Positions 10,015 through 32,380 of a stretch of 34,403 nucleotides of DNA are shown here, piece by piece. A program made the translations under genes and the position numbers. Each line of letters begins with the position of its first letter. Positions within the stretch are counted from its first letter, which is position 1. Under the pieces are notes generated by a model. It was not told the DNA's origin. It searched no databases and saw only the letters and a list, made by a program, of their open reading frames with translations. Location: positions 1 to 34,403 of the forward strand of contig JAEUMM010000455.1 of NCBI GenBank assembly GCA_016792645.1, given 5' to 3'. The stretch comes from Alphaproteobacteria bacterium (GTDB lineage Bacteria > Pseudomonadota > Alphaproteobacteria > Micropepsales > Micropepsaceae).

Positions 10015-10044
10015 AAAGGGGCGCGCCACGCGGCGCGCCCCTTT
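10015..10044. terminator. bidirectional rho-independent terminator
   Basis: A perfect 13-bp stem, AAAGGGGCGCGCC (10015-10027) and GGCGCGCCCCTTT (10032-10044), with a 4-base loop. It is A-rich on the left and T-rich on the right, so it can serve both the ligase (plus, ends 9996) and the CsgG-like gene (minus, ends 10064). Confidence 0.88.
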
Positions 10045-31190: not shown

Positions 31191-32315
31191 CTATTCGGCA
31201 GCCTGTCCGAACACGTGACGCCCGGCGTTAATCAACTTCAGACCCGCGATGCCTTCGGCGGCGATCGCATCGCCCACCATCTCGTCACTTTCGGTTCTCA
31301 GTTCCTCGACGTCGACATAGGTCGCGTAGATCGACGCCGTACGCTTGGTGATGATCCCGGCCTTCAGCAGCGTCTTGACCAGCACGCGGAAGATGTTGGT
31401 GGACTCTTTCATCTCCTGGCGGATCGTGTCGTCGGTCACCGCTTCCATGAACGCCGCCTGCACACGCTGCCAGTCGAGACCGACAAGCGCATAGACCGGC
31501 TTCTTCTGCTCGGGGGAAGCGAGGTTGAACAGCAACGTCTGGAACACTTGCGCCGCCCAGTCCTCGATCATGTCGCGCTCGGCTGCGTCGAGCTTCGGGA
31601 TCGTGCGATCAGCCCAGATCTTCCCGAACTTGTGGTGGAACGCCTCATCCGTCATCGCGAGCTGCACCAGCCGCACGAGCAGCGGATCGCGCCCCATCGT
31701 GTAGAAGGTGGCGAACGCGCCCATGGCCAGCCCTTCGACCATCAGCTGCATGCCGACGATCTTCTTCCAGGCGAATTCGGACGTGACCATCTCGGCGAGC
31801 AACCCGCCGAGCGCCGGTCCGACCGCGCAAGGCTTGCCCCAGCGCGCTTTCACATAGCGCGCGAAAGCGGTCACGTGACGCGCTTCCTCGCGTGCCTGGT
31901 TGGCGGCGTATTCCTGTGCGCCCGGATCGCGAAGAATGTTGCAGAGCGAAGCCGACAACGACAACGCCCCTTGTTCGCCGTGCAGCACAGACGACAGCGA
32001 CCACCACGTCTCAAGATTCGCGAGTTTCACCCGCTTGCCTTCGTCCAACTCGTCCCAGACGGACGTGCGCGCCACCGCAACCAGCTTCGGATCGACGAGA
32101 TAATCCCGCTCCATGTTGAACGGCGCGGTGAAGTCGATGTATTTGGTGTCGAGCGGATCCCAGAAATGATCGTGGGTCGCCGAGATGATCTTGTCGAACG
32201 CCGACGTCCGCTTGTTGTAGCGGTCGACATTCATGAGGGTTTGAAAGTCGCCCGGCGCGACGGTGTCGTAAATCTCGTCTCGGGTCAGCTGCCGGCCGTG
32301 AATATCCCGCGTCAT
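31191..32315 (-). CDS. ferritin-like diiron protein, probable oxygenase of unknown substrate
   Basis: A 374-residue cytosolic all-helical protein. ATG 32315 is supported by GGAGG 7 bases upstream. The canonical diiron ligand order is present: E114 (LHGEQGAL), E144 and H147 (REEARH), E194 (MVEGLA), then E224 and H227 (MTDEAFHHK). The 29-residue spacings between each Glu and its ExxH match ferritin-like carboxylate-bridged diiron oxygenases, including R2, AurF, toluene monooxygenase and acyl-ACP desaturase relatives. I could not place it in a characterised subfamily. It lies downstream of a VOC enzyme and a GST on the same strand, suggesting oxidative attack on an organic compound. A perfect inverted repeat frames its start, and an FNR/FixK-like box lies 52 bases upstream. 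Confidence 0.78.
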   Translation of the reverse strand: MTRDIHGRQLTRDEIYDTVAPGDFQTLMNVDRYNKRTSAFDKIISATHDHFWDPLDTKYIDFTAPFNMERDYLVDPKLVAVARTSVWDELDEGKRVKLANLETWWSLSSVLHGEQGALSLSASLCNILRDPGAQEYAANQAREEARHVTAFARYVKARWGKPCAVGPALGGLLAEMVTSEFAWKKIVGMQLMVEGLAMGAFATFYTMGRDPLLVRLVQLAMTDEAFHHKFGKIWADRTIPKLDAAERDMIEDWAAQVFQTLLFNLASPEQKKPVYALVGLDWQRVQAAFMEAVTDDTIRQEMKESTNIFRVLVKTLLKAGIITKRTASIYATYVDVEELRTESDEMVGDAIAAEGIAGLKLINAGRHVFGQAAE

Positions 32316-32351
32316 GAAGTGCCTCCGTGATGAAGACATTCATGACGCGGG
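32306..32351. promoter_or_regulatory. perfect 13-bp inverted repeat across the diiron gene start
   Basis: CCCGCGTCATGAA at 32306-32318 and TTCATGACGCGGG at 32339-32351 are exact reverse complements with a 20-base spacer. In the minus-strand mRNA the start codon AUG lies in one arm and the GGAGG Shine-Dalgarno in the loop. It could act as a translation-controlling hairpin or as a DNA operator. The two arms and the arrangement are seen directly; the function is inferred. Confidence 0.75.
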
Positions 32352-32366
32352 CGTCAGTTTCGCGCT

Positions 32367-32380
32367 TTGATTTAGGTCAA
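32367..32380. promoter_or_regulatory. FNR/FixK-like box upstream of the diiron gene
   Basis: TTGATTTAGGTCAA fits the TTGA-N6-TCAA core of FNR/FixK/Anr-type sites and matches TTGAT-N4-ATCAA at 9 of 10 positions. It lies in the gap between the VOC gene stop (32393) and the diiron start (32315). A class II arrangement would put the transcript start near 32332. Confidence 0.55.

Follow-up and report, generated by a model that had tools for sequence, protein, structure and literature searches.

The window, by which we mean the whole stretch of 34,403 nucleotides analyzed here, comes from a draft genome that is 82% complete and consists of 496 contigs. On its minus strand lies a gene for an AurF-type diiron protein, whose product has 374 amino acids from the ATG at 32315 and begins MTRDIHGRQLTRDEIYDTV (MTRDIHG...); when the N-termini are aligned, the relative L065 begins MTREI. 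Two genes of the same strand are found upstream, a GST gene (33559-32891) and a glyoxalase gene (32881-32393), and the end of the latter is separated by 78 nt from the diiron start codon. The features of the gene and of its start region are as follows.

31191 to 32315, minus strand: gene for an AurF-type diiron (ferritin-like) protein, an open reading frame with a match to Pfam AurF (PF11583, E 1.3e-12) and an N-terminus that aligns with those of relatives.
32306 to 32318, no strand: gene-side arm of the 13-bp inverted repeat, spanning the start codon and first codons.
32315 to 32313, minus strand: start codon ATG, placed by the sequence and the alignment of N-termini, inside the gene-side arm, where Met-Thr-Arg is encoded.
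32322 to 32326, minus strand: GGAGG, a Shine-Dalgarno-like site recognized from the sequence and predicted to be paired if the RNA carries both arms.
32332, minus strand: putative transcription start of a class II (-41.5) FNR promoter, placed by applying the -41.5 rule (PMC7713065) to the position of the box, which gives a 17-nt leader with GGAGG.
32339 to 32351, no strand: promoter-side arm of the 13-bp repeat, made up of the operator's proximal half and four bases that flank it.
32343 to 32356, minus strand: operator palindrome TGACGCCCGCGTCA of the form TGACG-N4-CGTCA, recognized by its conservation across related loci and by the count of sites in its own genome.
32367 to 32380, minus strand: FNR/FixK-type box TTGACCTAAATCAA (also written TTGATTTAGGTCAA), recognized by its conservation in the clade, by modules of fixed spacing and by an FNR homologue in the genome.

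The 13-bp inverted repeat is real but most likely not itself the functional element. Its arms, CCCGCGTCATGAA at 32306-32318 and TTCATGACGCGGG at 32339-32351, are complementary at 13 of 13 positions across a 20-nt spacer, and a check of coordinates and complementarity bore out an earlier note on this DNA, which had described exact 13-base arms around a 20-base loop with GGAGG, with the start codon (Met-Thr-Arg) in one arm. The same note was right that such a repeat is improbable by chance, as a dinucleotide-shuffled window contains 0.04 perfect repeats with arms of 13 bp or longer and a spacer of 3–30 nt, compared with two in the real window. The other of these two, likewise of 13 bp, lies at 10015-10044; it has a 4-nt loop and AAA/TTT flanks and is likely a transcription terminator. 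What the note had missed were the palindrome TGACGCCCGCGTCA (32343-32356), which overlaps the repeat, and the FNR-type box TTGATTTAGGTCAA (32367-32380). The repeat at the start codon is almost unique to one genome, and is most likely a by-product of a protein-binding site, in a promoter of an oxygen-responsive type, rather than a conserved RNA switch.

The palindrome TGACG-N4-CGTCA emerged as a recurrent element when the DNA preceding related genes was compared across 60 genomes related to that of the host. A wider scan of the genome contigs yielded 79 loci and 78 starts with sufficient upstream DNA, that of the window gene included. The motif was matched at 10 of 10 positions in 43 of these 78 loci and at 9 or more in 67, as compared with 0 to 1 of the 78 for each of three control palindromes at the same threshold (≥9/10). 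Many of the remaining loci are the second genes of tandem pairs. The host genome itself has 15 sites of the motif versus 0 of the reversed pattern, and all three of its AurF-family genes carry the operator, one of them twice. Conservation of the upstream arm, by which the earlier note proposed to judge its hairpin, is indeed found, but the arm is conserved as half of an operator and not as one side of a stem. Likewise, the fallback that the dyad may be an operator was correct in that an operator is present and mistaken as to its extent, which is the 14-bp palindrome at 32343-32356 rather than the dyad of 13, 20, and 13 bases. In several genomes, AurF genes with the operator (L062, L066, L070, and L071) adjoin large MMPL/RND-type transporter-like genes.

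The operator is accompanied by a second element. The box at 32367-32380 has the TTGA-N6-TCAA form of an FNR/FixK promoter, and its center lies 24 bp upstream of the operator center. In a tree of 80 proteins, the window gene falls within a clade of nine (support 100/99), and in each of these nine an FNR box and the operator are 23 or 24 bp apart; among the 71 other rows, a box within 400 nt is present in L077 only, on the opposite side of the operator. The same pairing recurs in a second, divergent AurF group (26–39% identical), where 16 of 19 upstream regions contain both FNR box and operator, 12 of them at a spacing of 23 or 24 bp and four at 17 bp. The 25 modules of box and operator belong to L001, L072–L075, L081, L100, L135, and L138, plus 16 of L177–L195. 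In addition, the genome encodes an FNR homologue (L196; PF13545, E 4.2e-21) with a cysteine cluster (ACITCPARKSDIC) and an ETVSR recognition helix. Judged by eye, the divergent AurF gene in G000:C221 (L063) and G002:C10 (L069) is flanked by a small ferredoxin-like gene on one side and by a gene of repeated PAS-like sensor domains on the other; that of G002 is also near apparent respiratory-oxidase genes, a setting that would agree with control by oxygen.

We consider it likely that the gene is preceded by an FNR-type promoter containing a second operator, and that the 13-bp repeat is incidental to this arrangement. An activator of the FNR/FixK family would bind TTGACCTAAATCAA (32380-32367) in the class II position, and transcription would begin near 32332, within the 20-nt loop, as the class II geometry suggests. 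Most FNR boxes of the alphaproteobacterium Sphingopyxis granuli TFA are at -41.5 (PMC7713065), and the putative centering of the present box at about -41.5 derives solely from the short distance between operator and ATG, since the operator ends only 27–36 nt before the ATG in the window gene, L195, L187, and L183. At these genes, so short a distance disfavors a promoter on the downstream side of the operator and fits a class II FNR promoter. Two other layouts were rejected: with a promoter downstream of the operator, the arrangement of the FNR-less paralogues, the start for the window gene would fall within the coding region, and with a class I FNR box (-71.5) it would fall inside the gene for the window gene, L195, L187, and L183. 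A separate regulator would bind the palindrome TGACGCCCGCGTCA (32356-32343) at about -24 to -11, and because this site overlaps the -10 region, the regulator most likely represses. Repression would suit both operator positions, that at the window gene and that in the FNR-less paralogues, where a CTTG/TAnnnT promoter follows about 6 nt after the operator. However, from its location in these paralogues an activator could work equally well, which counts against the model, as does the weak -10 match in the window (CATGAA). A simple scan for sigma-70 promoters found none. The proximal half of the operator (CCCGCGTCATGAA) would happen to complement the first codons (TTCATGACGCGGG) in one lineage, which would produce the 13-bp repeat; since the putative start at 32332 falls in the loop, the upstream arm would belong to the promoter and is probably missing from the normal mRNA. 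The arrangement resembles the class II FNR/FixK promoters of S. granuli TFA (PMC7713065) in its TTGA(C/T)-N4-(G/A)TCAA box, in a position fitting -41.5, in its short leader, and in the presence of a cysteine-bearing FNR homologue in the window genome. Unlike them, promoters of the window type have a second conserved operator 17 or 23/24 bp downstream, and the start considered here is a predicted one.

It would be tempting to read the repeat as an RNA switch at the start codon, either a thermosensor or a device controlled by a ligand or protein, given the strong predicted stem over the AUG. The region folds with -39.6 kcal/mol (z-score -4.2), and in the predicted fold the stem extends past 13 bp, as UGUCUUC pairs with GGAGGCA and the loop shrinks to 5 nt. 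At 37 °C, in an RNA with both arms, the predicted probability of being unpaired is 0.003 for GGAGG and 0.001 for the AUG, such that the ribosome site, which the earlier note had placed open in the loop, would be closed together with the start codon. Nevertheless, we find a switch of this kind very improbable. Both AUG and GGAGG remain paired in silico up to 75 °C, at which the AUG is unpaired with a probability of just 0.015; the window has no Rfam match to a riboswitch or known leader RNA family; and the upstream arm is probably untranscribed. Moreover, FNR box and operator are retained in the closest gene, L072 (80% identical), but its start is ATGTCGCAG and it has no start-codon repeat. The other clade members, L074, L075, L081, and L100 among them, do not have the repeat either, apart from L073 with a partial match of 11 of 12 and a 35-nt spacer. 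The starts of L072 (ATGTCGCAGCCC), L074 (ATGAACGCA), L081 (ATGCACAAA), and L100 (ATGGCTGAG) do not match their own operators. The RNA thermometer and the protein-bound switch that the earlier note had suggested were given up on these grounds, the thermometer for a stem that stays closed and a repeat without conservation or compensatory changes, and a known RNA family was rejected for the missing Rfam match. Across 73 loci, the longest complement between operator and start has a mean length of 5.04 nt in true pairs, compared with 4.88 nt in swapped ones; as true pairs are not above swapped pairs, family-wide selection for pairing is absent. The 13 nt of the window are the lone outlier, the maximum among about 5,250 swapped pairs being 10, and remain an outlier even given the operator, which makes pure chance a strained explanation. 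The outlier may reflect chance helped by shared GC-rich words, or a template-switch mutation. Template switching perfects weak repeats and can create hairpins (PMC8794818; PMC7202029). That a quasipalindrome mutation of this type turned a less complete complementarity of operator half and start codon into the perfect repeat is a reasonable possibility, although we hold it at somewhat below even chances: L073 displays an imperfect state of 11 of 12 and pure chance is strained, whereas the perfect state occurs in one genome only and the event is beyond reconstruction. This account is compatible with the promoter model, as it explains the origin of the repeat and not its function.

Other readings give the gene-side arm a role of its own. 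RNA entering from the upstream GST and glyoxalase genes would carry both arms, and the stem might then hide the ribosome site and AUG, leaving the diiron protein to be made only from the transcript of its own FNR promoter. Start-codon-sequestering hairpins of IS10 and IS200 act in this manner against read-through transcripts, and the long RNA of the window would likewise bury AUG and ribosome site: it folds with -36.8 kcal/mol and an unpaired probability of 0.00 for the AUG, compared with 0.38 for an RNA from 32332. The upstream gene of the same strand ends 78 nt away, and a scan for terminator-like sites on the minus strand found none between the genes. However, unlike the IS10/IS200 hairpins, the window repeat is not conserved, one of its arms is accounted for by the operator, and read-through is hypothetical here; no relative has the same feature, and L072 both lacks the start-codon repeat and has a different upstream layout. 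We regard such insulation as unlikely, and as slightly less likely still a combination in which, in the lineage of the window, an operator half-site was co-opted as a hairpin arm with a double function: at the DNA level it would be an operator of the gene's own promoter, and in read-through RNA it would block translation. More doubtful again is an operator of three half-sites, in which the regulator of the palindrome would also bind the gene-side arm through an additional half-site, TGACGCGGG, at the start codon. TGACGCGGG does equal an operator half, and L073, L135, and L138 also start with ATGACGC, but any Met-Thr start gives ATGAC, the half-site is lacking in L072, L074, L081, and L100, and the spacing to the operator differs (42, 59, and 87 bp).

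We thus favor the promoter model, in which a tempting claim of an RNA switch is replaced by a testable one. According to this model, an FNR box and a TGACG-N4-CGTCA operator at fixed spacing would control two groups of AurF-type diiron genes in alphaproteobacteria, and an operator beside a start codon can mimic structured RNA. The protein that binds the operator would reveal the signal that governs AurF-type iron enzymes, besides presumably low oxygen. Two candidates for this protein were rejected: a LuxR-type quorum regulator, as PF03472, the LuxR autoinducer domain, had no match in the AurF-bearing genomes G033, G067, G073, G082, and G087 (95–98% complete), and a TetR-like gene adjoining the diiron gene in G018 (L064), whose own promoter lacks the operator. 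No recurring neighbor regulator gene was seen in ten neighborhoods, judged by eye from reading frames, and literature searches returned nothing for the operator motif and only unrelated papers for LiuR.

Operators of the LiuR type (MerR family) have the form TTGACGT-N2-ACGTCAA, and share with the AurF sites identical TGACG...CGTCA half-sites and spacing. In the AurF sites, by contrast, the inner positions are mostly C or G instead of T/A, and no MerR gene is linked to them. Elsewhere in the host genome, a TGACGTTTACGTCA site precedes a MerR-like gene (L032); in G000:C28:10074 (L032, position 1501) a TTGACGTTTACGTCAA site stands immediately before this gene, which resembles LiuR autoregulation, and the 14-bp site of L032 is also present in G002, G013, and G018.
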